From: Macrotrachela quadricornifera
Taxonomy: Eukaryota > Rotifera > Eurotatoria > Philodinida > Philodinidae
NCBI GenBank assembly: GCA_022393335.1
Contig: JAJEKB010020718.1
Span: forward strand, 276,035-340,034
Reading direction: 5' to 3'
Length of the DNA: 64,000 nucleotides
The notes below the pieces were generated by a model. It had not been told where the DNA came from, searched no databases, and was given only the letters and a program-made list of their open reading frames with translations. This document shows, piece after piece, positions 15,414-62,190 of the stretch; the stretch's first letter is position 1; every line of letters begins with the position of its first letter. Both the position numbers and the translations under genes were made by a program.

Positions 15414-16484
15414 TCACTTACTTGAAAATCGTTGTCTTAATTGCAAATGTATCAAATATTTGTTTTTCTTACCATCGAATTCAACATTTTTAACACGAAA
15501 GCAAACACCTGGTGTAACAAGTTCTTCTTCTTCATTAGAATATTCGGATATTCCACTAATATCGGCAATAAAAGCAATCAATACTTCCATAATGAATAAA
15601 ACATTTCCAAATTTTTCTGCTTCTTCCCGATTTCGACTAGTTGATGTGTATGCTTGAAACGACCCATATGCCTTTTTATCTTTGGCCATTGCTTCATATT
15701 TATCGATCTGATCTTTAGTCAGAGTAGCTCCTCGATAAAGTGTCTTTTCAGTTGTAAGTTTTGTATTAAATGGATCATCCCAGAGTAATAAACAAAATGG
15801 ACCCAATGTACGAACTTTGCTTCGCCATACTTTTTCCTGTTCTTGATCGCCTACCAATCTCATCGCTGCATTCAAAGTTTTATATACGAAACTTTCTAAG
15901 GAATAAAGATAAATACAGCATTTCCATACCTCTTCCATTCCCGCATACTTCTTTTTTCTAAGCATTTTAGCTGCTTTTTCGGCTTCTCGTTCTTTTCCGA
16001 TGTGTTTTCCTTCTTCAATAATACCACAAGCAGCTTTTTCGACAAGCATTGGAATCATATTTGGTTTTTTCGAAGGTAATTCATCTGGTTTAAGGCCCAT
16101 GTCCCTTCGCACTTCAATTACAAACGGTGACACCCAACCATATTCACCACCAAATGAACGTTCCGAACTGACAGGAAGATCCATAAAACGTGTTTCTCGT
16201 AAATGCTTGTCTTCTCGTTTACGAACTACACGTTGAATGGGCCGTTGTTTGTAATTATCAGTGTTTAATATTTGACGATTAATTTTGAAATCAATATAAT
16301 AATCATCGAGTTGAGATCGTGGTTGTTTATCTTGAAAGGCTTCTTCAATAATTAAATTTTCTAAATCAGAATAATGACTCCAAGTGGCTTTCTCATATTC
16401 TGAATATGGATTTGGATTCGATTGCCACATCCACTCAACAGTTTTTAGTGAATTGTTTAATGTTGAAGGTGCAAATGAAGCCAT
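15414..16484 (-). CDS. WWE-domain mono-ADP-ribosyltransferase (ART) protein
   Basis: A 356-residue protein. Residues about 14-90 (EWMW...ATWSHYSDLENLIIEEAF...) look like a WWE domain, which in other proteins binds poly-ADP-ribose or ubiquitin machinery. Residues about 190-350 look like an arginine-type mono-ADP-ribosyltransferase with the R-S-E signature: R251 in TLYRGA, the S-T-S of AYTSTS at about 279-283, and an E-x-E with likely catalytic E321 in EEEELVTP. It should transfer ADP-ribose from NAD to a protein; the target is unknown. There is no signal peptide, so it is probably intracellular. WWE-ART architectures occur in animals. The stop codon lies in AAGTAAGTGAG, an excellent splice donor, so a further 3' exon is possible, but the ART fold looks complete. 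The start is the only upstream ATG. Confidence 0.85.
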   Translation of the reverse strand: MASFAPSTLNNSLKTVEWMWQSNPNPYSEYEKATWSHYSDLENLIIEEAFQDKQPRSQLDDYYIDFKINRQILNTDNYKQRPIQRVVRKREDKHLRETRFMDLPVSSERSFGGEYGWVSPFVIEVRRDMGLKPDELPSKKPNMIPMLVEKAACGIIEEGKHIGKEREAEKAAKMLRKKKYAGMEEVWKCCIYLYSLESFVYKTLNAAMRLVGDQEQEKVWRSKVRTLGPFCLLLWDDPFNTKLTTEKTLYRGATLTKDQIDKYEAMAKDKKAYGSFQAYTSTSRNREEAEKFGNVLFIMEVLIAFIADISGISEYSNEEEELVTPGVCFRVKNVEFDGKKNKYLIHLQLRQRFSSK

Positions 16485-17684
16485 GATAATTATTTATTTT
16501 AATGTTGTTTTTTAATGGCACAAATACGATAATAAACAAATTTTTATTTTATCTGAAAGTCAAAAAACAAGAAATAATGGTTAAATCAACAATGACTTCA
16601 ATTTTAAAGTCTCATTGAATGCTGAAGTTCTTTTTGAACTCATTCAAGTTTTATAAAGTCTTCTGAAATTTAAAGAAAATCGTTTCATTTATTTGACATT
16701 TCAGTTAAACTACAATACAATTCATTGAAATCTCTCAATTATTTTGAAGTTTTTTTCTAAATGTTCGGGAGATTTGAAGTAACTTTAAATGTTTTCAACT
16801 TTTCAAATCTGCTGTTCCTCATTCAAATGAAAAATATTTAACTTTGTTTTCTTTTCTTGGTCATTTTTTTCAAAGCTTAAATTTATATTTGATGGTGATA
16901 TGCACAAATAAACTTGTAATTGCTTGTCAAAACGTAGAAAATCATAAAAGGCAAGCAAGACCTATCGAAATTAACATTATTTTAATTTTGTTTTTTAATT
17001 TACAAGTTTTCTCAAATAAAATTTTAAATATTTTTCTATAAAATAAGATGAAATTCATTAACATAAATGAATTCAAGTACACAAAATAATATTTAGAGAA
17101 ATGTTCAATCAATTGTTCATAAAAGAGTTTATACTGTACATGTAGTTAAATAATAGAATTGGATCTTGATCAGATCATGATATTATCGAGCCGAATTAAT
17201 AAAAATTGACATTTTTAGTTATTATATTCTCAAAATGAGATAAATTATTCTAAATCCGAATAATTATGTGTGAATTATTGTCCACGTTTAGAATTCCTGG
17301 TAATATCAAAGTCATAATTTAATCGCTAAATTCTATGCAACATGCTGAAGTTAAGTGATAAAATCAATTCATTTCTTTCAATCAAACCTTCATGGGAAAA
17401 AATGAAATATACCACGAGAATCAACTCATCAAGCTCTACAAACTAGGGTATATCCCGTTAAAAACTGAGCGTCACACTTGGGGACCTTCCCGCGTCAGTT
17501 ATAAGCAAAGGATTTGCTGATGAATCAATTGGTGACTGTGTAATAATGAATTATGTCCATTGACACAAGCGGAGAACCATAGACTGATTCAAAAAGATAG
17601 TCTACCATTATCCTAACTTCAGACACAGTGCTACAGCTTGCCTGCCTCAATGTATGTAATGCGTAACCTGCCATATCTTACGTA
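16485..17684. other. Gene-free stretch
   Basis: Upstream of the ART gene; presumably holds its promoter, but no specific element stands out. No other coding signal. Confidence 0.5.
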
Positions 17685-21082: not shown

Positions 21083-21224
21083 CTAGGGATGCAACGGTGA
21101 CGATAACCGTTCCACCGGTAACCGCTATGAACCGGTAACCGGAATGGACCGGTAACCGTTTCACCGGTCATCACTATGTGTTACACGAGTAATCCTCTCA
21201 AGTACAAAATTTTCCGGATACCAT

Positions 21225-21830
21225 TGGGTCCTCAACTGCTATATATTTGTGAAACTCTTGGGCCCTCAAGTACTATATATTGGGAGTACCCTTGGATCCT
21301 CAAGTACTATATATTGGGGGTAGCCTTGGGTCCTCAAGTACTATATATTATGGGTACCCTTGGGTCCTTAAGTACTATATATTTGGGGTACCCCGTAGGT
21401 CCCCAACTGGTGTATATTAAGGGTACCCTAGGATCCTCAAGTACTATATATTGAGGGGTACTCTTGGGTCCTTAAGTACTATATAATTGGCGTACCCTTA
21501 GGTCTCCAACTGCTGTATATTAGGAGTACCCTTAGATCCTCAAGTACTATATATTATAGGTACTCTTGGGTCCTTAAGTACTATATTTTTGGGGTACCCT
21601 CAGGTCCCCAACTGGTGTATATTAAGGGTACACTAGGATCCTCAAGTACTATATATTGGGGGTACCCTTAGGTCCTCAAGTAGTATATATTGAGGGTACC
21701 CTTTGGTCGCCAACTCCTGTATATTAGGGGTACCCTTGTGTCTTCAAGTACTACGTGTTAGGTGTAGCCTTGAGTCCTGAAATACTATATATGGGGGTAG
21801 CCTTGGGTCGTCGAATGCTTTTATACGAGG
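21225..21830 (+). repeat. 33-34 bp GGTACC minisatellite, left array
   Basis: About 17-18 units of GGTACCCTTGGGTCCTCAAG followed by TACTATATATT. The cores are spaced 33-34 bp; for example 21285, 21319, 21353 and 21387. Units decay toward the right end of the array. Confidence 0.9.
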
Positions 21831-22559
21831 CTGCTTTTGGTAACCCAAGCTTTGCTGCATGGAGGTACCTTTGGGCTCTCAGAAATTACTATATAATGCC
21901 ATTCTTAGACCCAGGAGCCTATTCAATGAAGGTATCCGTAGGTCCTCAGGAACTCTTGCATCGATGAAACTTTAAAGTCTCGTATAGTGTTAGATGGAGG
22001 AGCTGTTAGGTGCTCCAGCAGCATTCTATAACGCTACTCATAGGTCACACGAGGGATACGAGAAGCCATTAGTTCCAATCGTATTGATCGTATTGGTAGT
22101 GTGCAAAAGGGCATCAAAGATGCCGGTATTTAAAAACTCATTTTGAATCTGAATTCGTTCACTGTGAAAACTTTTGAGAAACTTGCAAATACTCTGATTG
22201 TCACAGAAAGGCCTTCATGTTGCAGAAATCAAGGACAGCAAATCAGTATATCCAGATTTCAAGTTCTTAATTTTTTGTTCACGTGAAGACCGTTTTTTAT
22301 GTGAAATAGTTCCAGATAAAGTTCCAAAACGGCTTTTCGGGATCGAGCAGTTGGAATCTAGCATTGATTGATCGAAACTTTCGGATTACGTGTTTTTATG
22401 TAACTATCAACACAGCTAATACCCAATAGTATTCGTAATCGAACCATTAGCATTGTTAGATCACTCTCGTGACCTATGACTACCTTTATATAATAGGAGA
22501 CGAGAACCTAACAGTCTCTCCATATAGTAGCTCTCTGCGACCTATGGACACCCGTGTAT

Positions 22560-22965
22560 CATACAACTTCAGAATCCAAGGGCATCCCTAATATAAAGCA
22601 GTTGAAGACCCAAGGGTACTCCCAATATATAGCACTTGAGGATCCAAGGGTACCCCTAATATATCGTGGTTGAGTACCCAAGGGTACCCCCTATATACAG
22701 CACTTGACGATCCAAGAGTACCCCCTATATAGAGCACTTGAGGACCCAAGGGTACCCCTAATATATAGTGGTTGAGGACACAAGGGTACTCCTAATATAC
22801 AGCACTTAAGGACCGAAGGGTACCCCGAATATATAGTAGTTGAGGCCTCAAGGGTACGCCTAATATATAGTAGTTGAGGACTGAAGGGTACCCCCTATAT
22901 ACAGCACTTGAGGACCCAAGGGTACCCCTACTATATAGCACTTGAGGATCGAAAGGTATCCGGAA
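22560..22965 (-). repeat. 33-34 bp GGTACC minisatellite, right array
   Basis: About 12 units of the same repeat in inverted orientation (AGCACTTGAGGACCCAAGGG followed by TACCCC). With the left array it makes the element a long foldback. Confidence 0.9.
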
Positions 22966-23072
22966 AGTTTTATACTTGAGACGATGACTTTTGTGACACA
23001 TACTGAGGACCGGTGAAACGGTTACCGGTCCATGTCGGTAACCGGTGAATGATCGTCACCGTTGCATCCCTA

Positions 23073-24130: not shown

Positions 24131-24167
<37 letters not shown>

Positions 24168-24169
24168 AG
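24131..24169 (+). repeat. (GAGGGT)6 telomere-like run
   Basis: Six perfect hexamers GAGGGT (24131-24166) plus GAG. The rotated unit TGAGGG differs by one base from TGTGGG, the telomere repeat reported for bdelloids. A shorter GAGGGTGAGGGT occurs near 20490. It may be an interstitial telomere-like patch or a simple microsatellite. Confidence 0.85.
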
Positions 24170-24356
24170 ACCAGCTACCATTATCCATAGATTTCACTGC
24201 AGCAACACAGTGTGCTGATCTTTATGTCTGGTCGTCGAATCAGTCCTCTTTTTCTTTATTCAAAGGAAGCTATTGGATATTTGAGTGATAATATTAAAAA
24301 ATTTTTTATTGCTTCCAACGTTGCAGTCACTTGCAGTAAGTCAAGAAAACTGACTG

Positions 24357-25558
24357 CTACTATCCGTTTCAAAATAGAAGGCACCTCACGATTTTTTGAA
24401 TAACTTTTGATAGGAACAAGATAGAGACTTGCGGTTTTCACCATTAGGAAGAGGAGAGTCCGGGGCATCGAACCACATCAGAAGCATAATCCTTGAGTAC
24501 TTAGGTCTGACCAAAAGTTCGCGCAACATTAAATAAAAATATAAAGATAAGAAGATATTTTTAGTTTTATTTCATCAAATATTGAGGATAGTTGACAGTA
24601 TTATTTATGCCAAGACCAACCATTCCGACACAATTTGTTAAAAGTTTTTTTGAAGTCTTTTTCGAAAAAAATTTCAGATATCTTGAAAACCACATGAGCT
24701 AACGAAGTTTCACTTCTTTATTTACTTCAACTACGTTTGATAAAATTAGTTAGTCAGGAATTACATAGTATCAGGTCTGAGGAATAAGGTGGATAAGACA
24801 TTATATTGATATTTTCTTCTGTCAAATAATTAATAATATTGGATGAGTATGAAGCCATCGATCATCATGAAGCATTTTTGTGCATTTTGAACCTGATATC
24901 TCTATTTGTTTTCATATTCCACTAAAAAAGGACCTCAAACAGTTTTCGATATAGTACTTGTACTCTATGATCTTGTCTTTACCTACATTCAGAATTATTT
25001 CATTTAAAGAATACATCACAGAAAGTTTTGATTAAAACCTGTCTTTATGAACAATAATGTTAGCTGATTTATCCTCAATGAGCCAGCTAACATCAAATGA
25101 CTTATGACTGACGTACCCTAAAAAAATCTATGACCTATCTCTAGTGGTGCTAGGACACAACTGACATCATCGAACAAAATTTTGCTGAATTTTTAAAAGA
25201 AATCGAAAACGATTAATTCATGCGGTTTCGAAGATATCTGAAATTTTTTTCGAAAAAGACTTCAGAAAAACTTTTAACAAATTGTGTCGGAATGGTTGGT
25301 CTTGGCATAAATAATACTGTCAACTATCCTCAATATTTGATGAAATAAAACTAAAAATATCTCCTTATCTTTATATTTTTATTTAATGTTGCGCGAACTT
25401 TTGGTCAGACCTAAGTACTCAAGGATTATGTTTCTGATGTGGTTCGATGCCCCCGACTCTCCTCTTCCTAATGGTGAAAACCGCAAGTCTCTATCTTGTT
25501 CCTATCAAAAGTTATTAAAAAAACCGTGAGGTGCCTCCTATTTTGAAACGGATAGTAG
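24357..25558. mobile_element. Mariner-like foldback with about 345-bp inverted arms
   Basis: 24357-24700 pairs with 25220-25558 at high identity; both carry TTCGCGCAACATTAAATAAA or its complement, and GGTCTGACCAAAAG. The loop holds only the C-terminal part of a mariner transposase on the minus strand. The long arms could be the product of a fold-back rearrangement of one mariner end. Confidence 0.75.
24715..25190 (-). pseudogene. Mariner transposase C-terminal remnant
   Basis: Read on the minus strand, the loop translates to a decayed mariner-family segment. NYLTEENINIMSYPPYSSDL matches the region around the third acidic residue of the DD34D motif (usual form: ...HPPYSPDLAPCDYWL). Several in-frame stops are present, including two where the HDNA-type motif would be. 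It resembles the copy at 60.0-61.0 kb. Confidence 0.75.
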
Positions 25559-27280
25559 GTACTGTCACAAACTGATCAAAATAAGAAATGTCATCTGCCT
25601 CATGGTCGGTCGTGCACATCACTAACACTTTAGAAAACACAAGTCATAGACTTGAGAGTCTTTTATCAATATCCTTGTAGTTAAGTTGAATGCAATTTTT
25701 ACCGATTATATTGTTGTCTTTGTGCTAAACATCCTTCGAAATCAATGAATCATATCCTGAGTATCTAAAATGTGATATTGAATCAAAATTTTACTGGTCA
25801 CAGAACTCTATACTTTAAACTCAAACTAGAAAACTTTAATTGTTATTATGACCTTCAACTTTTGTATGATTATATTATCGTATGTAAAACATATGGTTGA
25901 ATCGAAAATTCAGTTATATTTACTAGTAAATATATAGTTATAGAGTGTTACAGATTTATAGAAGTTCTTCATGTTCTAACAAGGCCAAAACCTTATGTCT
26001 CATATAGCGAAAAAAAAACTCTTGATGAATAGAGTACAGGTTTTACTAGATTTTCTAGAGTGTCAATTGAGATTTTCATTCATTATTTAATAGAATATGT
26101 CATAATCTATCTTCATTGAATACCCAAAGATGAAACCGTCTGAAATTATTATTGAAATATGATGTCTTTAGTGTCATCTTTTATCAAGATTTGCTGACAA
26201 TGACTATAAATTTATTTTTACATTCCTACTTGGGAATTAATTGTACAAAAAACAATCATGCATAGTTTTCTTTACAAATTACATAGTGATGTGTTTTGTA
26301 TTGTATTATTTTTCATTTAAAACAGTATAGTATAAAGTTAAACGATTTTTCTAACATTCATGTGAGACAGATAATAAATTTCAAAAGTAGCACTAATAAA
26401 CATTATAATACATACGATTAGTGTTTGGAAATTTTAACTAAAAAAAGTACTTCAAATAATATGAAAACATTTGTCAAACTAATGCAGAATATTTCTTTCA
26501 TTTCTTTACTTCGTTATAAACTTTATAGCACGTACAAACTCACTTCTATGGAAGAAGCTTTTATTTACAGGAAATTCTTCATTACATTTAAGATATTAAC
26601 ACATTCACATGAATATCAAACAGAGATGTATGAGACATCAAAATTTTTTGGTACCCAAGAAATCTGTTTTGTGAAACTTGTCAACGTATTCTGACGATTC
26701 CTGTGGATAACTGGTGCAGCAGAATGAATGGCCCTCTTAGTATTTATCGAGAATATCTCTCTCATATTTTAATGTATATACTTGAATCTTTTGTCAAATG
26801 ATTTCGCATCGCTATCTTTTCTACATACACAACAGACTGAATAGGCTAGTTTATAGCTTGTGAAAAGTTCTATCAATTGAACGGATACTTCATTTTGATA
26901 TATTGTCAATTTCCCTAAAAAGTATCCTCTTTTTTAATTCCCACTATTTTCGTGTTGAGAATGTTATAGTAAGGTTCTTCGCAATTTTAATTTTGTTACA
27001 TTAAATGGAAAATGATTACAAAGGTGCAATACTTGAGTCATAGAACGAGTGAGATCGATAGTTTCAATCGACTTTCCTAGAATATTAACTCAACGAAACT
27101 CTCCATTAGGATCTCATACCTATTTAACTAGAAGAAATTAAATTAAATCCTGTTAATAAATTTCGATTAATCATTATTCCTTTGATATATATACTGTCAA
27201 AATTATCTCTATAACGAATAGAAAAAATACTATTCCTATACATATTTTGATAAATTTTATTTTAAAATAGTATAGTAATT
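25559..27280. other. Gene-free stretch
   Basis: No supported gene. An open frame at 26425-26694 has no ATG at its start and no recognisable domain. Confidence 0.5.
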
Positions 27281-27832
27281 TCAGATAATGTCCATATCAG
27301 GAACACATTTTGGACATTCAGGATATGGATCATTAATTTTTGAGGGATGTTTTGTACAAAGACGACAGTATGGTCGTTGAAAATTACATCCAATTTCATT
27401 GCAAGGATTTTGATAATAAACTCCTAAACCAGATGCCATTATTTCCCAAGGAATCGAAGATGTACACGATTTATCATAAGGTAATAAACATTTCTCATCT
27501 TGTTCAATACGATCTTTTGTTAAATTAGTATTTGTAGATTTCACGAAAGATGTAGACGTTGATGTAGTTTCTTGCGAAAACGTATTACGTTTTGGTTTTT
27601 GCAAAGAGACATATAGTAATGTTGAGATAAATAAAACAATAAGTATTGTCACGATAATAATTACAATCAAGTGTTTTTTACTAAGAGGTACACCATCGCA
27701 CAAACTGATACTTTCAATTTTTGTAATCGGTAATGGACTACTGTTTCGTGATTCTGTCATTGATGTTAACAATGGAGTAAATGATACTGGTTTGTTTTTA
27801 GTATTATTATTTTGATTGAATCTAGGAGCCAT
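27281..27832 (-). CDS. Single-pass membrane protein with Cys-rich C-terminus (probable alternative exon of the DED locus)
   Basis: A 183-residue open frame: a polar N-terminal part, one strong transmembrane segment (about 55-77, HLIVIIIVTILIVLFISTLL), a Ser/Thr-rich stalk with an N-L-T glycosylation site, and a C-terminal region with eight cysteines (CLLPYDKSC..., CNEIGCNFQRPYCRLC..., CPKC). No family recognised. The cysteine-rich end is more likely outside the cell, giving type II topology, although positive residues flank both sides of the membrane segment. The ATG lies two bases after TTCTCTTTCTAG, a strong splice acceptor. If the upstream DED exon (28276-28534) splices here, the reading frame is preserved through a lysine codon, making an N-terminal cytosolic DED fused to this membrane protein of about 270 residues. 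Alternatively it is a separate gene whose 5' end is made by spliced-leader trans-splicing, which occurs in bdelloids. Confidence 0.7.
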   Translation of the reverse strand: MAPRFNQNNNTKNKPVSFTPLLTSMTESRNSSPLPITKIESISLCDGVPLSKKHLIVIIIVTILIVLFISTLLYVSLQKPKRNTFSQETTSTSTSFVKSTNTNLTKDRIEQDEKCLLPYDKSCTSSIPWEIMASGLGVYYQNPCNEIGCNFQRPYCRLCTKHPSKINDPYPECPKCVPDMDII

Positions 27833-27870
27833 TTCTAGAAAGAGAATATTTATTTATTTATTTATTTAGA

Positions 27871-28534
27871 TTAAATTTTTTTATTGATTAATTTACGTGA
27901 AACATGTGTTGTTGCCATTTTATCATCCACCATATCTTCTAGTAGATGATCGATAAGCGTAGAATTATTGACTGTACTGATATTGTTTGTATCAGTAACA
28001 AAAGTGTTTGCTGGTATTGTAGAAAACAAATTATTTTTTGAATTCGATACCATATATTTCTTCGATAAATTCGTTTGAAGTTCTTAAAAGGAACAAGATA
28101 TAAATCAAACTATTGGAGTTTGGTGGTGACATATTTTCCTTTTTACACATATTGACAACTACGTAAACGAAATAAGAAAAGTTTTCGATTTATGAATTGA
28201 GTTTTTAGATGACTTCTTAACTCAATACTAGTTATCTCTGTATTCAATGAAGTAAGACAAACTAAACACACATACTTTTCAAATTATTTGCCGCTTGATA
28301 ACATTTAATAGCTTCAAATGCATTGATTAAATAGGAAAAATTTTCTTCTGATATTTTTTCTCTATCTAATAGCTGTTGAAATCCATCCATTGTTCCTCCA
28401 ATTGTTGGATCATCACGTATTCGTCGTTCAATATCATCACCCAAAAGAAATGATAATTTTTTACGATCATTATCTGTAAGTTGATCTAATATATGAATTA
28501 AAGTTTCACGAAAACAAAATTTCGCATCACTCAT
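27871..28534 (-). CDS. Death-effector-domain (DED) protein, two exons
   Basis: Exon 1 is 28276-28534 and exon 2 is 27871-28082. The intron (28083-28275, 193 bp) has donor GTATGTGT and acceptor CCTTTTAAG; phase 1 is preserved, giving 156 residues. Residues about 6-82 look like a DED: RETLIHILDQLTDNDRKKL, LSFLLGDDI, FQQLLDREKISEENFSYLIN and a last helix AIKCYQAANNL. The order and hydrophobic pattern match FADD/caspase-8-type DEDs, with the usual RxDL at the last helix not conserved. Such domains assemble homotypically in apoptosis or innate signalling. The exon 2-encoded tail (about 70 residues) is Asn/Ser/Thr-rich with no domain. It is adjacent to, and probably spliced alternatively with, the membrane-protein exon 38 bp downstream. 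Confidence 0.72.
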
Positions 28535-31157
28535 TATGTGATTTCATTCTGAAAATGAAAAGAAATCTAAATTGAGTAGTTTGTTTTTAAGTTTTGAAAA
28601 GTAATTCAGTACATTATATCTTACGAAGCCTACGAAAATAGAATATCCTTTTAGCATTTATAATCTATGCAAGAAACAAAATATGTAAGTAAGTCGTATT
28701 ATTATTGTATGGTGTCTTTACAATATTAACTCGTTCTATGGAAGAATGGCAAAAAGGAAGAAACATATGATAATTTATGCTTCTTTCTTTGTATTCTCGA
28801 TGCGAAATTTATTATCGTTACTATCAAGATAGAAAGTCTTATGTGTTTGAGTCATATAGAAGAAAAACAAATGAATGTTGGTATTTTTTTTTTCTTAAGC
28901 TAAAAGTGTTTTTTCTGTAAGCAATATTAGTTGCTTAAATACACGAGAGATGAGAAGAAGAACATAGTAATAATCAACGTGATAGAATGAAAAAAAAAGA
29001 ACATACTTTTATCGAAAGATATCATTGTTGCCATAACAATTATATCAAAAATATAAGCGCAATTCATACATAGAATACATAATCACTGTATAGACGATGT
29101 TTTGTGGATTCTATAATTAGTTAAAAAACTTCCATCTGTCAGAATATACAAGCGTTGGAAATATACGTGCATCACATACTGAATTTTTTCAACATGACGT
29201 ATTGAGTTTTTTCCATGTTCTATATTAGACTTCCTCAATATATTCGATTATGCCATATATAATATTTTCCAACATACTTACAAATACAGTTAGAAAAAAA
29301 AAGTACTCGATCACCCCCGTCTTAATCTCATATAAAGATTCTATTCGAATAAATTCTTTACAAAGTTAGACTTTTGTAGAGTAACTAACCATATATCGAA
29401 TGATATATAGGAAACTGCATTTAGGAAAATTTATAAATAGTTCTAGAAAAGGTCTTCGATTCTGATTTATTTCATAGTTTTAATGATAGACGCGTTTGAC
29501 TAAATCCTGATGAAAGCAGAATTTTGTGGAGAATACTTCTATGCAAGAAAAGTGATAAATACTGAAAATATGTCAGGATGTCAAGCTGTTTTCCCCTCGC
29601 TTTATGCCTGTCAAGAGTATATATGTACATAAGTATAATAAGAGTCTATTGAAATAGAATCTTTATATGAGACTAAAATGGAATGGTCGACTACTTTCTT
29701 ACCAACTGTATATATATATATATCTGTTTTTTTCTTTTGCTGTCCACTATCATATTCACTAATTCTATATTTTTCTTTTATTCGCTTCTCTCTATATTAT
29801 GTCAAATATTGTACGAATAAACCGAATTCATTCATACAATTTACATAATTGAATACATTTTATATCTATTAGAAATTTGAAAAAGTCATTATACTTTATA
29901 TGTACAGAGTGTTTCAGAAATAATCTAAAGTTTCTGTAGTATTAATTTATTTACCTTCTTTCATCAACTTTTCTGCATGTTTCACGCAAGCATATTATCC
30001 TCTTCAATGGAATAATAGGTCTAGTCGATCAAACGATAGTTTGTATATCCTTATATTCAGCAATGACGAAAACGAAAATTTTTCGTGATTGATGGGTATT
30101 ATACCTCGATACTCCCTCCCTGAGTAGGCCACCACTGCTTACATTAAGCCGTGAAATATTGAAAAAAATAAACATGAAAAGATCATTTTTTTTTTACGGA
30201 TGTCAGTTTGAAATTATGTTAGCTTATACATGAATATGACTAACGTTTCTCTTCTCTCTTCTCTACTACTCGTGTGTTCCAAGTCACAATTCTATTGTCT
30301 TTTTGTAGCTGCATTTATCGTATCTATGGACTTGATTACTATTATTTGTGATTAAATAAAAATTAATTCTGCTTACAGAGGAGTGCCCTTAAGTGTACGA
30401 TCACTTTTTGCTTGAGACTATTGCCATTAAAATGACATCAATGGATATAGGAAACGTCCATATTGATTCCGGTTCATAGATCTCCTATACTGAGATATTA
30501 AATTATCGGGTTACAATCAAAATAGTCGAAAGTATTGATTTAACTTATTGATGCCTATGTGTCGATAAATTCAGTGATATTATATTCTTGTTATAGTATT
30601 GCTTTAATCCTTTTTAAGTTTCGATAATGGTAGACGTTCTCAAAATATATTTTTGTCCTTTACAACTTTGTTCATTACTTCAAAAGCTTTATTTATACTT
30701 GTTGTAGATTATTGAACACCTCCATATTGTATATTAAATGATATTAGACACTTGCACATATTGTTAAATTATTTCGATATTTAGTTATCGATCTTTATAT
30801 ACACATGAAAAGTCATAGTTGTAAAAAAAATTTATTCTAATAGGATATATATAACTATAATTTAACTTCAAATGTTCGACACTATAGACTTATACATACT
30901 CTAATAGAAAGTTAATAATACCATAAAAAAACTAAAAGATTATATTTTGAATTCATATTTATACATAGAACAAATTATAGTGGGATCTAAAAGAAAACGA
31001 TCTTTGCTCTGTTAAAGATATAAAATCATTTTCTTGATTTTCATATAAGAATTGTAACTTTTAACATATTTCGTATTTTTTTCTTCAATTCGTTTTCAAT
31101 ATTATCTCTTCTTATTAAAAACACAAATATTAATTTATTGTAAAAGAAAAAGTTTTA
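28535..31157. other. Gene-free stretch containing one MITE
   Basis: Apart from the MITE at 29285-29710, no gene or RNA is supported. Confidence 0.5.
29285..29710. mobile_element. Tc1/mariner-type MITE, about 425 bp
   Basis: Ends begin CAGTTAGAAAA on the left (about 29287) and, in reverse complement, CAGTTGGTAAGAAAGTAG on the right. About 60 bp of each end pair, with CTCATATAAAGATTCTATT identical. Both ends abut TA dinucleotides. No coding capacity. Confidence 0.7.
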
Positions 31158-38700: not shown

Positions 38701-39265
38701 TACAGAGAAGTATTGTAGCTTTGAGACAGACTAGTATTTTTTTTTAACGTATAGTCTCTCATAATCTCGTTTTAATGTCTTGTGAGCGAGGTTGATATGG
38801 AACTGATTCCATAATTTGCAACATTGGAAATTAAATGTATTCTCGTTGAAAAGAGTTTCAAAATTTGACAGCAGTTTCTATTACAAATTCTAAGTCATGC
38901 GTACATCTATGTTAGCACAGAGAACGAATATAGGAATAGACTCCCATGTTTTTGTTTTTCATTTGCCAAAGCAAATAACAAATAAAAATTAATGATCACT
39001 TCTACTATCCTGTCTTACAATGGATTGTAAAAGCTTTATTTATCGTTGAATTCATAATAAAGCTTTTAAGAGGTTTTCAGAAAAAAAAATTAAATAATTT
39101 TAATAGTTCATTACTATCTCTTTTTTGCATAGTCTAAATTACATAGAAGTATCATTTATTGGGTCAATAGTCTATTTCGCTTGTTTTGTTTTAGACGAAA
39201 AAGGTTGTACTGTACGTCTCGTGTATTTATAAATCAAATAATTTACACAACAAAGATTCATTATA
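35708..39265. other. Gene-free stretch
   Basis: No well-supported gene. 36946-37173 is a weak candidate with an intron-like 54-bp segment (see findings). A frame at 37560-37772 has no recognisable feature. Near 39224 a TATTTATAAAT stretch about 40 bp before the protease start may be its TATA element. Confidence 0.5.
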
Positions 39266-40348
39266 ATGCAACAAGATTGGATCATTAAATACTTTACAAT
39301 TGTTGTCATCGCGACTTATGGCTATGCGCAGGACTTACATGTCAGTATAGTTCCAACGTACTCACGTGTGAGTCCGAAACAAGATGTAGAGGTGACTCTA
39401 AATTATAAAAATAAGGGTTCCAATACCGTGTTTATTTATAAATGGTGTTTACCCTCAAGGAAACTATATGATCCTCTCTTTGAAGTTACACGAGACGGTA
39501 AACCTGTCGAATATCTTGGTCCCGTAGCCAAACGACGACGGCTCACCGCTGAAGATATGATTCCTGTGGAGTCTGGTAAGGATGTGAGTAGTCGTATTGA
39601 GCTGTCTGCAGCATATAATATGACAACGACTGACAAGTATTCCGTTCAATTCAAATTTGATTGTCATCCTATACTGCTCGCATCAGTTCTTAAATTGGGT
39701 TCCGAAGATACATCATCTAATAAATTGGCCGAAGTTAATCTAGAATCTAATCGAGTCGAATTGTTCATCGAAGCTCATCGCAATGAAGTGATCGAAAGAA
39801 GCGCTCAAGTTAATACGCAAAGGAATGCGGGCAAACATGCTTTTATCGGTTGTGCATCAGCTCGACAAACTTTGATTAACTCTGCAATCCAATCAGCAAA
39901 AATTTATTCTGCTAATGCTGTACAATATCTGAAAGCACTTAATACAGCGGCCACGGCACGTTATACTACTTGGTTTGGCACATCTTCCTCGAACAACTGG
40001 AATTCAATGAGAACACATTTCAACAATATTAATACAGTCGTTAATGCCAGATCTATGACATTCTATTGTACTTGCACTGTGGCAGGCACATATGCTTACG
40101 TTTATCCAAGTTTGCCTTATACAATATATCTATGTCCTGCATTCTGGTCAGCACCAGCGACGGGTACCGACAGCAAGGGTGGTACATTAATACATGAAAT
40201 TTCTCATTTTACTGTTGTGGCTGGTACTGATGATTATGCATATGGTCAAATTTCATGCAAGGCTTTAGCCAAGAGCAATGCTGCTAAGGCAATCAAGAAC
40301 GGTGACAGTCACGAGTATTTTGCTGAGAACAATCCAGCGCTAAAATAA
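39266..40348 (+). CDS. Secreted aspzincin metalloprotease, M35 peptidyl-Lys type
   Basis: A 360-residue protein, uninterrupted. A signal peptide spans about 1-21 (IVVIATYGYA). An N-terminal beta-rich prodomain-like part runs to about 175. The catalytic domain carries the zinc motif HEISH (310-314), followed by GTDDYAYG (320-327), whose D323 is the expected third zinc ligand of aspzincins (GTxDxxYG). The paired cysteines and NGDSHEYFAENNPAL tail also match fungal peptidyl-lysine endopeptidases of family M35. It should cleave on the N-terminal side of lysines outside the cell, for feeding or defence. The family is mainly fungal and bacterial, so horizontal origin is plausible. The start is chosen because it opens directly into the signal peptide. 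Confidence 0.9.
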   Translation: MQQDWIIKYFTIVVIATYGYAQDLHVSIVPTYSRVSPKQDVEVTLNYKNKGSNTVFIYKWCLPSRKLYDPLFEVTRDGKPVEYLGPVAKRRRLTAEDMIPVESGKDVSSRIELSAAYNMTTTDKYSVQFKFDCHPILLASVLKLGSEDTSSNKLAEVNLESNRVELFIEAHRNEVIERSAQVNTQRNAGKHAFIGCASARQTLINSAIQSAKIYSANAVQYLKALNTAATARYTTWFGTSSSNNWNSMRTHFNNINTVVNARSMTFYCTCTVAGTYAYVYPSLPYTIYLCPAFWSAPATGTDSKGGTLIHEISHFTVVAGTDDYAYGQISCKALAKSNAAKAIKNGDSHEYFAENNPALK

Positions 40349-47057: not shown

Positions 47058-49288
47058 TCAGCCAGAACCAACCATAACAACATAACCAGCGATACCCTCA
47101 TATTTATAGCCAAATTTGCCAACTGCATCAGGTGTTATTGTACCGATTTCGTCTCTACTTATTGTATAGAAATGTGCACCATGGTTGCTCGAATAATAGC
47201 GATGCAGTGGTTGTGTATCTTATCGATTTGTTGAACAGATGTATCCGACAATTCCTTCACATTCCCAGTTGCCGATAACGACGCTATTTGCATTTGTGCC
47301 AATTTCTTGCCAACTACTTGTGTAAAAATGCTGACCACTGCGAGTGTTGAAGTAACGATATAGAGGAAGCGTGAATGATGGTTGAGGATCAGTTGAAGCA
47401 TAGATTTGACCTACATTACCTTCAAAGTAGTATCCGTAACGACCGATACTACCTGGAGTAGTTGTACCTATTTCGTCAGGATTCGTGGTATAAAAATGAT
47501 CATAAGCACCTTTAGAATAACGATATAGCGGAATCAGACGACCTAAACAGAGTATAATTAATTAAAAGAGTACATAGAATACCTAATTTACTCATAGTGA
47601 AACCACTTTAAAAAATATCAATGGGGAGACATGAAGCTTCCATATCGATTCAGCTAGTCTTGATGAATATACGAGTATATTCTATTCGTACAAACAAATG
47701 GTACCTGATGTACTAAGGGGACGAGTACTCATACCATTTCTGAAGGCAAAATTTGAAAGATTAATGCAAAAACAAAATCTTTTTTCATCAATATCGCATT
47801 GGATAACACTCTTACTGAGGAGTCATTTCAAGTAGATTAATAACCTTTAAATATTCTCTAAACATCGATTCACTGTAACCAGAATATGGATGTATAGTTA
47901 GTCTAAGTTTGTTTGATATGCACTGTAATGTGATTATCTTTTCATTTATAGATACATTTTCAGAGCGATATAAGAATTACAAGAGACGCGAAAGACGTGA
48001 ACTCAAAATGCATCTTGTTGACTTTATACTCATGAGATGAAATTAGGAAGCAAACCTGTTGGAGCTTGCACCATGACTGAACAATCAATTCCAGTCCATC
48101 CTGAATTACAGCGGCATTGCCCGAATCTAAAGTATCCACTTGGTATACACGATCCAAGTTTCGAACAATTATTATAACAGAATAGTGGATTTGTTAAATA
48201 TTTCTCTTGTCCACGTTGAATTAAACGTGATTTTGACTCAATATTAGCATCGCCTGGAAAACGCTTAGCTGTAAGAAGATCGAGAAGAGGTGCAACACCA
48301 AATTTGATAATTGTTGGATTCGACGAAACTGTTTTGGACCATTCTTCGATTGGCTGCATAAACGTTGCATCACCCAAAGTTATAAGACTGCTTTGCTGTG
48401 AAAATCTGTTGAACACATTCAACTTTGTCTGATCGAATTGTTCCGTCAGTGTGAGTTTGGCTGAGATTGAAAAAATAGCACCGGCAGCAGTTTTCAATTC
48501 TGTCTGATCCGTAGTAGTGAATCCCTTCTGTTGAAGATTCTTTCGATTTTCTTCGGAAATAATAATTTTTTGCTGTGCAATTCCGCCAAGAAGTAAGTCA
48601 TTGACATACATTAGGCCAAAATAATCAATAATAAACTTCCGAATATATTGATCAAGTTCCTTTGATTCATTGCAACACGGCATATTATGAATTACGTAAC
48701 GAAACTGATCCGATAGCGCGAGAAGAGGTGTAAAAGCGGACAAACGTACCCAACTAATGCTCGCTCGAGTAAAATAAACAGTAGAATTTCTTTGAACTAT
48801 CGTATCAATCATCGAACGTGTTTCTTGTGAATGGGAGTAACTAAATGAATTATCATAAACGCTAACGCTGGCAGAAGAACCGATGCCTTTTTTGTACTCT
48901 CCATTAATTGATCTAGCGTAGAAATACTCTCTGTATTCGCGGTGATTTGCATTGATGGTAGGCAATCGAGATTAACGTTCTGTGGAATAAATTTATTCGT
49001 ACAAGAGCCCTCAGCTTGTTTAGTCATGTTAAGTTTGAAAACGGGCTGGCGAAATCCTTCCATTTGACATTCTCCCGTATAACAAATAGGAGAACCTGTA
49101 AGCAAATCGTATCCGACGCCAATTTTACCACTATTCTGTAGCCAAGATGTTTCATCCAAGGTCACTTGTTTTGTCGAACGTAGAAGATATTCACGCACAC
49201 GTAATGTTGCTACATTTATCTCCTCGTATGATTGAGCATCGAGTTGACATGGCGCTAGAAGAATAATAACTATCGAAAATATTAGCAT
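47058..49288 (-). pseudogene. MACPF-EGF-DUF5648-like secreted protein gene, apparently broken
   Basis: Exon 1 is about 48056-49288 and exon 2 is 47058-47542; the intron (47543-48055) has donor GTTTGC and acceptor CTGTTTAG in matching phase. There is an N-terminal signal peptide, then a membrane-attack-complex/perforin-type domain, one EGF-like module (CSKLGSCIPSGYFRFGQC...CNSGWTGIDC), then three tandem repeats of roughly 45-50 residues (LYRYxxxxxGxHFYTxxxxEIGT) resembling DUF5648. Two breaks are visible: a one-base frameshift near 48900-48935 inside the MACPF region, and an in-frame TAA at 47220-47222 in the third repeat. Either the locus is decaying or the assembly has errors. MACPF proteins form pores or act in immunity and development; which applies here is unknown. 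No introns are seen in the MACPF part. Confidence 0.75.
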
Positions 49289-53234: not shown

Positions 53235-53590
53235 TGTTCACTTTCTATTTAGAAAATAAATCGAACTGATTAAAAAATTCCAATTTATATATAGATTGAT
53301 TCTGCTGTTTCCATTTATTTGTCGTCATTTATATTAATCAATATTACGCATGTTGAATACTTCCTTCCTTGTATCATTTTCTCCTTGTGTAGGCTTCAGG
53401 AAGTTCACAACTTCCCTTCTAATATACATGATTTTCACTAATTTTATTTTTAATTGCTTCCGGACGCCTCTTCAAATAGGATAATAAACACTTTATGATT
53501 CACTCCTGTAGGTATGGATAGATACATATATTCGGTTGTACTCATCATTTCTACTATGATTCTCTATTCTATTCTTACGATTTGTTGATC

Positions 53591-54223
53591 ATGTTGGTTC
53601 TTTTATTTGTACATCTCGTTCTTACTGTGGTTAGTTGGACATCGGGAGCAACAATTGGCATTGCTAAGAAAAATTCTAGTTTGTCAATTCCAACCCTTCC
53701 ATTTCCAAATTCTGTATTTCAACATAAAATTCGTGGCAATCAAACTGATAAAACGTTCGTCGTTTTCGAAGCTGAATATTTGAATGAAGGACCAGGTCAT
53801 CATCGTCACACAAAAGATGATGAATTATTTTATATTCTTGATGGTAAAGTTCAATTCATTGTGAATAATAGTCAATTTTGTGCTTCGGCTGGCGATTATG
53901 TTTACGTTCCACGTAATATTTCACAAGGTATTAGAGTTTATAATCCAACAAATAATTCCAAACCAGTCAAAATCCAAATAATGTTATTTCCATCAGGATT
54001 GGAGAATTTTCTTGATGAAATAGCAGTCATATATAATCAAGATCGAAATAATCAAACAGCAATTGATTTGATTTCAACAAAATATGGTATCATCGGATTG
54101 GAACCAGTTCAATGGGAAGATCTCGGTTGTTTCAATAATATTTCTATTCAATTATCATCAAACATCTCAATTCTCATATTTATCATCTTCATTAAACATA
54201 TTCTTGAATTCATCTATTTTTAA
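53591..54223 (+). CDS. Secreted cupin-domain protein
   Basis: 210 residues from the ATG at 53591; an in-frame TTG nine bases earlier is not needed. A signal peptide ends near VVSWTSGA. One cupin barrel follows: motif 1 is GPGHHRHTKDDELFYILDG, with the two histidines and glutamate that bind metal; motif 2 is AGDYVYVPRNISQGIRVYN, where the usual metal-binding histidine is absent. The C-terminal 20 residues are hydrophobic after a Ser/Asn stretch (ILIFIIFIKHIL), suggesting a GPI-anchor signal or membrane tail. Several N-glycosylation sites (NNS, NIS, NQT). The closest relatives are expected among bacterial single-domain cupins. A specific reaction cannot be assigned. Confidence 0.8.
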   Translation: MLVLLFVHLVLTVVSWTSGATIGIAKKNSSLSIPTLPFPNSVFQHKIRGNQTDKTFVVFEAEYLNEGPGHHRHTKDDELFYILDGKVQFIVNNSQFCASAGDYVYVPRNISQGIRVYNPTNNSKPVKIQIMLFPSGLENFLDEIAVIYNQDRNNQTAIDLISTKYGIIGLEPVQWEDLGCFNNISIQLSSNISILIFIIFIKHILEFIYF

Positions 54224-58697: not shown

Positions 58698-59464
58698 TTA
58701 TGATAATCCACATTGTCGTCGACATTCTTGTGTACCTTTGGCAGGATCAATAGTTTTAATTCGATCCTTATTAATATTCGGTTTTTGACCATCAAATGTG
58801 GCCATGACAATTGATTCTGGTAAAACTTTGAAAAGAGCATCTGCTACATCGATACGTCCGGGATCATCGCTGCTAGCCACTGCAATCAGTGAAGCTTCTT
58901 GACAGTCTGTATTGATAAAATAATGGACAGCACCTTGTGGAAAAATTGTGCCTTGACCTTCTTGAATAATTTGTCCGACATAGCTAGCACCATTTTCTTG
59001 TACAAAACCAAATTCAAATCTTCCTTTGATGATATAATATATTTGTGCTGCACGAGGATGAAGATGAGGAAGGACAACACCACATGCATTCACTCGAGAT
59101 AATGACATAGATAGATCATTATTGAGTAGCATGGGAAAATTTGTGCCCTAAATTAGATTAGCATATAAACATTATAAATCTATTGATTGTGTTTTGATCT
59201 TACTTTTGCTCGAACTGTTTGTCCAGCATCTGCTCCAGAGATAATATCGATATCTCTCGGATTGTAGAAATCGAATATGAAGTCCGATTTGTTCTTGAGT
59301 TTCTCGAAGGCTTCTTCTCTAGTTAGTGGATATTTTATTTCTGATAATGAAGTTGGTAGAGCCCATAAAAATTGACTACACACAATGATGCATACACTGA
59401 GAGTAAGGAGAAACATTATCTTTGTTGGAAAAAAAGTTAAATCTTGAGTGATCGAATGAAACAT
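58698..59464 (-). CDS. Germin/spherulin-like secreted cupin, two exons
   Basis: Exon 1 is 59204-59464 and exon 2 is 58698-59147, with a 56-bp intron (GTAAGATC...AATTTAG) in phase 0, giving 236 residues. The signal peptide fits better from the internal Met17 (MFLLTLSVCIIVCSQFLWA), so the true start may be at 59416. The mature part matches spherulin-1/germin-like cupins. Box 1 is GVVLPHLHPRAAQIYYIIKG, where the glutamate ligand of H-x-H-x4-E is replaced by glutamine; box 2 is GTIFPQGAVHYFIN with its histidine intact. Germin-like proteins are extracellular Mn-binding oxalate oxidases, superoxide dismutases or stress proteins; the E-to-Q change makes catalysis uncertain. The family is common in plants, slime moulds, fungi and bacteria and rare in animals, so transfer is plausible. 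AATAAA-type signals lie just downstream. Confidence 0.85.
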
Positions 59465-61192: not shown

Positions 61193-61951
61193 TTATTTCG
61201 TTCTACCAGTCATCGCATATTGAATTCCACCCAATAGATGTTGCGTGAAAAGTGGATCTAAATAAGAATCTAGTTGATGCGACAATTGCGTGTAAAAAGA
61301 ACGACCACCATCATAATTTTGATACCAACTCATTGGATGAATTTTACCATGTTCACCTCCATAATAGCTTGTTTCATCGATAGTAATCAAAACTTTGACT
61401 TTATCCCAATGTGTCATTTGAAAATTATACCATTCATCGAATCGTTTCCATTGCTTTGGAAGATGTTTGGTAGCAATAAATGTCTGATCTACGATATTCA
61501 AAGTTGCATTTTGTAATTGACTTGGATGATTAGCAAAATAACCACCAATCAGTTCATTGTACCATGGCCATCCATACTCAGTATCAGCTGCTGCATGTAT
61601 ACCAACAAAACCTTTTCCTGTTCGAAAAAAACTTTTAAATGCTTCTTGTTGTTGTTCATCGAGGACATCACCTGTTGTACTTAGAAATACAACTGCAGAA
61701 TACCATTTGAGATTATTTACGGTAAAGTATGAAGCAATATTTGTCACATCAACATCGAATTGATTTTGTTCACCTAATTTTCGAATAGCATTAACACCCA
61801 TTGGAATCGATTCGTGAAAATATGGAATTGTTTTGATAAAAACAAGAATTTTCGATTGATTGGTGCTTGTTTCTTCTTGTTGATCGATGGATGCAGCAGT
61901 ATATCCTTGGAAGAATAAGTATATCAATAGTAAAGAACGGATGATGAACAT
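61193..61951 (-). CDS. Secreted ThuA-like protein
   Basis: 252 residues. The signal peptide covers about 1-20. The rest is a ThuA-like, glutamine-amidotransferase-type fold: KILVFIKTIPYFHESIPMG (about 34-52), GKGFVGIHAAADTEYGWPW (about 113-130), GGYFANHP, FDEWYNF (about 171-177) and PMSWYQNYDGGRSFYTQLSH near the end. All match bacterial ThuA-domain proteins linked to sugar (trehalose or glycoside) utilisation. The catalytic cysteine of true amidotransferases is not apparent, as is usual in this family, so its reaction is unproven. It is intronless, secreted and bacterial-like, hence a good horizontal-transfer candidate. Confidence 0.88.
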   Translation of the reverse strand: MFIIRSLLLIYLFFQGYTAASIDQQEETSTNQSKILVFIKTIPYFHESIPMGVNAIRKLGEQNQFDVDVTNIASYFTVNNLKWYSAVVFLSTTGDVLDEQQQEAFKSFFRTGKGFVGIHAAADTEYGWPWYNELIGGYFANHPSQLQNATLNIVDQTFIATKHLPKQWKRFDEWYNFQMTHWDKVKVLITIDETSYYGGEHGKIHPMSWYQNYDGGRSFYTQLSHQLDSYLDPLFTQHLLGGIQYAMTGRTK

Positions 61952-62190
61952 CTTTAGTTAGTAATATCGAAAACGTTAATCGACACAATATTTGTCACGC
62001 ATTTTTTATACTAAGGTGATTGAATAATGTCACTTCCTCTCTTTTATTTATTTTCCAAGTGAAACTTCCGAGGACATGAATCAGTAAAGAAAATCATGCA
62101 TTTGACAATCAGATGTTATCATCTTTTTTTATTGCCTATATAATGAAATAGAAAGTCAAATATGATATTCATTGCTATTCATTTCCGAAC

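Follow-up and report, generated by a model that had tools for sequence, protein, structure and literature searches.

A three-exon DED gene of Macrotrachela quadricornifera encodes a predicted single-pass membrane protein and belongs to a rotifer family with varied ectodomains

Overview

The minus strand of the window, meaning the whole 64,000-nucleotide stretch of DNA that was analysed, carries a locus that is well supported by sequence comparison as one three-exon gene for a single-pass membrane protein. The predicted product comprises, in order, a death-effector domain (DED, a domain of cell-death signalling), a linker, one transmembrane (TM) helix, a stalk, and a disulfide-type eight-cysteine module. 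This gene is a member of a large, apparently undescribed rotifer family in which the same DED chassis is combined with many ectodomains, several of which are of sugar-binding types. We consider it quite probable that the product is a type II DED-TM-eight-cysteine protein of a receptor-like family whose ectodomains are swappable. The comparisons below document the anatomy and conservation of the gene, the family, and the diverse downstream domains and TM segments.

Structure of the gene and its product

Joining positions 28534-28276, 28082-27897, and 27834-27281 of the minus strand yields a 332-amino acid ORF uninterrupted by a stop, with all joins in phase 1. Exon 1 (28276..28534, 259 nt) includes the start codon, which lines up in the alignment with homologues P0001-P0005, and encodes the DED (residues 1-86). 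As the initial annotation had it, this exon ends in phase 1 before a GTATGT donor. Intron 1 (28083..28275, 193 nt) extends from GTATGT to TTTTAAG, and its splice sites are identical in a second genomic copy of the gene. Exon 2 (27897..28082, 186 nt) is a phase 1-1 linker exon that ends in ...DMVDDKMATTHVS, and the acidic motif of the linker reads D-M-V-D-D-K. This exon aligns in all five near-full-length homologues, and a search with it on its own gives in-frame matches to two proteins of Rotaria (E 1.4e-6 and 2.5e-6). It is ended by a GTAAAT donor at position 27896 that the first reading of the locus overlooked. Intron 2 (27835..27896, 62 nt) runs from this GTAAAT to TTCTCTTTCTAG, with splice sites that are kept in the second copy. 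Exon 3 (27281..27834) encodes the TM helix, stalk, and eight-cysteine module, and terminates with a stop at 27283-27281. The AG acceptors before 28082 and 27834, which set the starts of exons 2 and 3 and each keep the frame, had been correctly recognized before.

The single predicted TM helix covers residues 204-222 (27614..27670, minus strand; Kyte-Doolittle 3.35). An AlphaFold2 model of exon 3 contains a helix at 52-77, in a block with pLDDT 72-94, that coincides with the predicted TM segment; this helix is the sole confident part of a model with an overall pLDDT of 47.6 and no usable fold match. The eight-cysteine module (C264-C325; 27305..27490, minus strand) has fixed cysteine spacing.

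A dynamic-programming splice model returned the three exons of the window gene exactly, including intron 2. However, the intron cost and end bonus of this model were raised after its first version overran the stop of the same gene and created false exons, and its recovery of the exons is therefore a non-independent control.

An upstream ORF of six codons plus a stop (28527-28547, minus strand) overlaps the DED start and lies directly after the acceptor-like sequence TTTTCATTTTCAG. As far as the DED start, the sequence of this ORF is the same in both genomic copies.

Homologues and a second genomic copy

A search of a large protein set yielded five matches among 669 candidates, all from bdelloids, with 94-100% query coverage and E values from 1.6e-71 to 4.1e-50. 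These proteins (P0001-P0005) come from Rotaria magnacalcarata, R. socialis, Adineta steineri (two proteins), and A. ricciae. Each of the five near-full-length homologues spans both exon joins, and in the alignment with the window product the DED, linker, TM segment, and eight cysteines reside in one protein, P0004 being C-terminally truncated. Judging from these alignments, the DED-TM-eight-cysteine gene is kept in Rotaria and Adineta. The idea that the cysteine module was joined by prediction error only is ruled out by the continuity of exons 2 and 3, which is conserved in the five proteins.

A profile search (eight matches among 3902 candidates) added three proteins. P0006 from A. vaga carries a 7TM-receptor-like stretch (weak and below the cut-off), a DED, and the cysteine module; P0007 has two modules and lacks a DED; and P0008 is a DED-only model of 182 amino acids from Didymodactylos carnosus. 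No DED paralogues with other ectodomains from other bdelloids were among these eight matches; the wider family is documented for the present genome only.

The window lies on contig C4293 (276035-340034), and contig C4805 carries a collinear second copy in which all three exons are intact. The coding sequences of the two copies differ by 23 substitutions in 999 nt, of which 13 are synonymous-codon and 10 nonsynonymous-codon changes (dN 0.013, dS 0.065, dN/dS about 0.2). Differences number 3/259 in exon 1, 3/186 in exon 2, and 17/554 in exon 3, compared with 8/193 in intron 1, 1/58 in intron 2, and 10/550 upstream. Exon 3 is thus the most changed exon (3.1% versus 1.8% upstream). The window protein looks to be under constraint, on per-exon counts that are small.

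Identity of the DED

The profile check proposed in the initial annotation gave a PF01335 match of 40.3 bits, above the Pfam cut-off of 35.9, that begins at residue 8, and on this sequence score we take the predicted DED to be real. The seven other DED-bearing homologues score 31.5-39.2 bits, with P0008 alone above 35.9. AlphaFold2 models the domain with low confidence (pLDDT 63.1) as five helices, the death fold having six, and Foldseek found no fold match to this weak model at E<=0.001. A PDB sequence search recovered the caspase-8 DED weakly (E 0.06; 0.01 by profile), and a search with a profile mixing long homologues and the DED exon gave no useful match. An R-x-D-L motif is typical of FADD/caspase-8-type DEDs and is not required by Pfam. 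It is absent from all eight DED-bearing proteins compared (the window protein and the seven others). Strings of this form, counted irrespective of their place in the fold, occur in 4 of 27 genome DED models.

Among the matches listed, which were compared by eye, no DED match has a C14 peptidase closer than 10 kb, and the usual DED-caspase partner was therefore not found; the nearest pairing is separated by ~14 kb, on C4071. Two DED-less jacalin matches are located ~0.9 kb downstream of a C14 peptidase on the same strand (C4724:20234-22287, minus; C4632:670958-672936, plus). L056 on C4629 is a RIG-I-like gene in which a DEAD/ResIII helicase comes after two DEDs in tandem (DED 86.2 bits, DEAD 75.1), and this DED-DED-DEAD gene is a possible DED partner.

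A genome-wide DED family

The genome contains 36 DED matches, 15 of them above the cut-off, and the window protein gives 51 matches by exon. We examined 25 genomic stretches, representing part of the loci, in which our own profile finds 27 DED starts. Downstream of many DED exons, a linker and a TM segment lead on to an ORF that differs between loci, and the DED-linker-TM portion is joined to its ectodomain mostly via phase-1 introns. Ten same-strand ORFs were chosen by eye for Pfam comparison, of which eight score above the cut-off and two have no match. Specifically, jacalin is found in L030, L036, and L038 (45.2, 41.1, and 31.0 bits; cut-off 22), GH18 in two ORFs of L031 (62.7 and 47.9; cut-off 29.6), DM9 in L039 (64.5; cut-off 26.2), NHL in L044 (114.7; cut-off 20), and a ricin-B-like domain in L046 (27.4; cut-off 25.6), where the joined model reaches 25.2, just below. 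L034 and L042 carry a tandem six-cysteine pattern without a Pfam name, and unnamed domains stand at the end of L059 and L060.

The family claims rest mostly on these single ORFs, with joined models for L043 (full-length GH18, 284.8 bits), L058 (PAN_4, 32.9; cut-off 27), and L040 (jacalin, 36.8). Nine joined models were scanned; the DED cut-off is passed only by L046 and the helicase gene, and L060 has no DED match. The many-exon models are unreliable, in that L044 omits the TM exon and enters a further gene, and L042 ends after the DED. At L047 on C4521, inspection by eye indicates a DED gene copy that is apparently interrupted between the DED and TM segment by transposase-like sequence.

Where a solved chitinase has GIDLDWEYP, the sequence of the GH18-like part is GIDISWKYP, and in L031 the glutamate is replaced by I. 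For L031 and L043, the best solved matches, with 5gzu in first place, include chitinases of the bacterial type. Because the catalytic motif is lost, the GH18-like part has probably been converted to a binding domain that does not hydrolyse its target.

Several controls bear on this architecture. On the same strand, a TM-like segment is present up to 1.7 kb downstream of 16 of the 27 DED starts, versus 1/27 for the opposite strand and 2/27 upstream, where TM-like means a 19-mer mean of at least 2.7, a threshold chosen after inspecting the downstream ORFs, and where 8/27 upstream and 4/27 opposite-strand controls have no usable ORF. The downstream/opposite/upstream counts are 22/7/9 at a threshold of 2.0, 21/6/4 at 2.3, and 11/0/0 at 3.0. 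The 11 starts below the chosen threshold comprise two that are N-masked, one at the end of a stretch, two in the helicase gene, and six others. An acidic linker pattern is present at 17 of the 27 starts, the window linker not being a strict fit. Of the 12 jacalin matches in the genome (450 Mb), six follow a same-strand DED exon at a distance of 0.6-1.1 kb, for which the chance figure is about 6e-4 (36 DED matches x 1.2 kb); these six include a likely allelic pair and a tandem pair, leaving about four that are independent.

In a DED tree of 33 rows, from which L041 was dropped, the ectodomain types interleave. Members with jacalin, six-cysteine, and DM9 parts share a nine-row clade (88/91, not starred). 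The DED of the window gene clusters with those of other bdelloids' eight-cysteine proteins and with that of D. carnosus (89/91, not starred).

The eight-cysteine module outside the DED gene

A profile of the cysteine module gave 23 matches at E<=1 among 372 candidates, and all named organisms among them are rotifers. Eight of the 23 contain two or three complete modules by cysteine pattern. A hydrophobic N-terminus scores above threshold in P0007, P0009, P0010, P0011, and P0027 and is discernible by eye in P0012, P0013, and P0015; the multi-module proteins are predicted to be of the secreted type. Neither exon 3 nor the two-module relative P0007 has a Pfam match above the cut-off, a PDB sequence search returned no relative of the module at E<=1, and the module was not found in viral and prokaryote contig sets at the sensitivity used.

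In four instances, a gene of the secreted type apparently adjoins one with a DED or a TM-module. The A. vaga pair has consecutive tags (I4U23_027126 and 027127), and the longest contig is the same for both members of the other three: 21454 for A. ricciae P0013 and P0005, 54330 for P0009 and P0024, and 2482 for P0016 and P0020. Such equal longest-contig values are strong hints of adjacency, not proof. In a module tree with 35 rows and few columns, the module of the A. vaga DED gene falls together with the two modules of its neighbour (99/85).

When P0007 is compared with the genome carrying the window, seven matches result. Two are the DED gene and its second copy, two are the decayed modules that adjoin them, and the remaining three lie on C5664, C5667, and C4347. 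At L032 (C5664, minus strand), an open module of 103 amino acids follows same-strand GH81 glucanase exons (103.7, 123.8, 140.9, and 59.1 bits; cut-off 25.6). At L033 (C4347, minus strand), an open module is preceded by ORFs near-identical to the GH81 ORFs of C5664. These two open modules rule out the idea that the module is intact only in the DED gene in this genome. Because it is present after a GH81 glucanase, the module is not bound to DEDs or to membranes. It may be glycan-binding, since it follows a beta-1,3-glucanase and stands alone in proteins of the secreted type.

The decayed copy in the window (25577..25765, plus strand; tblastn) has two in-frame stops within the matched part and lies 1.5 kb past the 3ˊ end of the DED gene in convergent orientation. 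A module remnant likewise adjoins the second copy on C4805. An element at 24357-25558, with 382-nt inverted arms that are 92% complementary, ends just before the decayed module and is possibly a transposon that truncated it. Elsewhere in the window are a run of TGAGGG-like repeats at about 24131-24170 and a minisatellite-like region at 21131-23055 with repeated ORF text on both strands (GTLGSS... / GVPLGPQ...).

Topology and possible function

A type II orientation, which would place the DED in the cytosol and the eight-cysteine module outside, is most likely because the DED precedes the TM helix, outside-type domains follow it, and the module occurs in proteins that appear to be secreted. The type II arrangement with a cytosolic N-terminal DED put forward in the initial annotation is a fair reading of the sequence. 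The charges flanking the TM helix of the window protein (N flank 0, C flank +2) are undecided on topology, and those of four of the five homologues favour N-inside, with P0005 as the exception.

From this arrangement we infer a receptor function consisting of ligand binding, DED clustering, and an output. The ectodomain would bind either a glycan, of microbial or self origin, or a secreted protein composed of the same kind of module. For the eight-cysteine module, the ligand might be beta-1,3-glucan, which is proposed because the module also follows a GH81 glucanase. Ligand binding would induce clustering that brings DEDs together, and the clustered DEDs would in turn attract further DED proteins and so trigger a death or immune response. 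More broadly, we regard it as an evenly balanced proposal that these genes constitute undescribed bdelloid surface immune receptors of type II, in which a DED-linker-TM chassis carries exon-shuffled ectodomains (lectin-like, dead-chitinase, DM9, PAN, and cysteine types). The window member would sense fungal-type beta-glucan, secreted module proteins encoded beside some members would serve as ligands or decoys, and no DED-caspase would take part.

Alternatively, the protein might be anchored in an internal membrane and act there as a DED regulator or scaffold, comparable to BFAR/BAR, with a lumenal cysteine module and no ligand. Such a role would be consistent with a DED plus a TM helix, for which lumenal and extracellular topologies are indistinguishable here, and with no DED-caspase among the C14 matches listed. 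However, we think it unlikely, given that jacalin, PAN, DM9, and further domains typical of the cell exterior are found in paralogues, and that secreted-type proteins share the cysteine module, which is also found behind a GH81 enzyme.

Transcript forms of the locus

The initial annotation proposed that alternative splicing allows this one locus to make a soluble DED protein, perhaps a regulator, or a membrane-anchored DED protein. In favour of this arrangement, the frame is kept at both junctions and exon 2, a multiple of three in length, could be skipped. However, it is unsupported because it missed the donor at 27896, which closes exon 2 and makes the acceptors at 28082 and 27834 successive rather than alternative. 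Specifically, the soluble form via 28082 would arise only if intron 2 (27896-27835) were retained. The exon beginning at 27834 does add the TM helix and eight cysteines in frame after the DED, but the direct 28276/27834 join given for the membrane form skips exon 2, which all five near-full-length homologues contain together with the TM segment. The recurrence of an acidic-DK linker after the DED exon at 17 of 27 DED starts also speaks against the proposal, the window linker again being no strict fit.

Global alignment agrees with the three-exon gene. Against P0001, the three-exon form scores 639, the exon-skipped form 468, and the intron-retained form 215, and the three-exon form is the best fit for all five near-full-length bdelloid proteins. 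Two further models deviate from this pattern. P0008 resembles the soluble form, since the intron-retained sequence fits it best (293 versus 139 for the full form). P0006 omits the linker and TM segment, joining the DED to the cysteine module; with free end gaps it scores 354 with the exon-skipped and 294 with the full form, in a comparison for which the isoform sequences were slightly off, and when end gaps are charged all three forms score below zero. Both look like unreviewed gene predictions. They are the main evidence remaining for short forms, and would leave room for these as minor products. Overall, we judge alternative splicing into soluble and membrane proteins improbable.

Least credible of all is spliced-leader addition at 27834, which would give a separate TM-cysteine protein without a DED that starts at Met150: AAATGG directly follows the acceptor TTCTCTTTCTAG and trans-splicing is described as widespread in bdelloids, with a 23-nt leader on more than half of transcripts (PMC1925144), but Met150 is unconserved in the Adineta proteins and intron 2 is an ordinary short intron, in frame with exon 2.

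Other ORFs of the window

The window also contains ORFs matching WWE+ART (15417-16493), an M35 peptidase (39242-40345), DUF5648 (47223-47561), MACPF with a weak EGF match (48033-48971), two cupins (53522-54220 and 58701-59147), and ThuA (61196-61957). Some of these look like foreign genes.

Comparison with known systems

Although they do without regular sex, bdelloids are confronted with deadly parasitic fungi. A varied set of receptors, one of which perhaps binds glucan, would bear on how these animals recognize microbes, and the rotifer DED family supplies concrete, testable genes. Death-fold domains are known to be combined with pattern recognition in intracellular sensors and type I receptors; if true, a family of many type II genes that pair an N-terminal DED with exchangeable ectodomains would solve this task in a separate way. 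In titles and abstract starts, with subscription journals and preprints outside the search, we found no description of bdelloid DED receptors or of a DED-TM-ectodomain family.

Fas/TRAIL-R-type receptors are type I proteins that start with a signal peptide, contain TNFR repeats, and carry their death domain at the C-terminus. The window gene shares with these TNF-receptor death receptors a single TM segment, a cysteine-rich part, and a death-fold domain, but differs in its N-terminal DED, its probable type II orientation, and its unrelated cysteine module. In the window protein, the DED match already begins at residue 8, no death-domain match follows the sole TM segment (204-222), and Pfam detects no TNFR repeats. 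Dectin-1 is a type II lectin receptor for beta-glucan. Receptors of this type likewise have an N-terminal cytosolic signalling part, a single TM segment, and a C-terminal sugar-binding ectodomain, features that the rotifer proteins are presumed to share. However, the rotifer family would use a DED as the signalling part and has jacalin, GH18-like, DM9, ricin-B, PAN, and cysteine modules rather than a C-type lectin. BFAR/BAR is a membrane protein with a DED-like region, and thus has both this region and a membrane anchor in common with the window gene. BFAR is described as having four TM regions and a RING (PMC9285105), whereas the window gene has one TM helix and no RING was seen in it.

Among invertebrates, DED-NACHT proteins in amphioxus (PMC2575513) and DED-RLR proteins in Lingula (PMC8998645) are described as intracellular sensors, and lophotrochozoan RLRs with a DED are known (PMC8998645). 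In these innate sensors the DED likewise serves as a connector, but the rotifer family differs in its TM segment and swappable downstream domains. Anthozoan NLRs with TM segments, and DED sequences among anemone NLRs, have also been described (PMC5094078); these TM NLRs are again death-fold sensors with a TM segment, but are NACHT-based. A survey of secreted rotifer lectins excluded TM proteins, and its accessible text contains no word beginning with 'DED' (PMC8878817). In other words, the parts of the rotifer proteins are known from other systems, and it is their combination and orientation that appear to be new.
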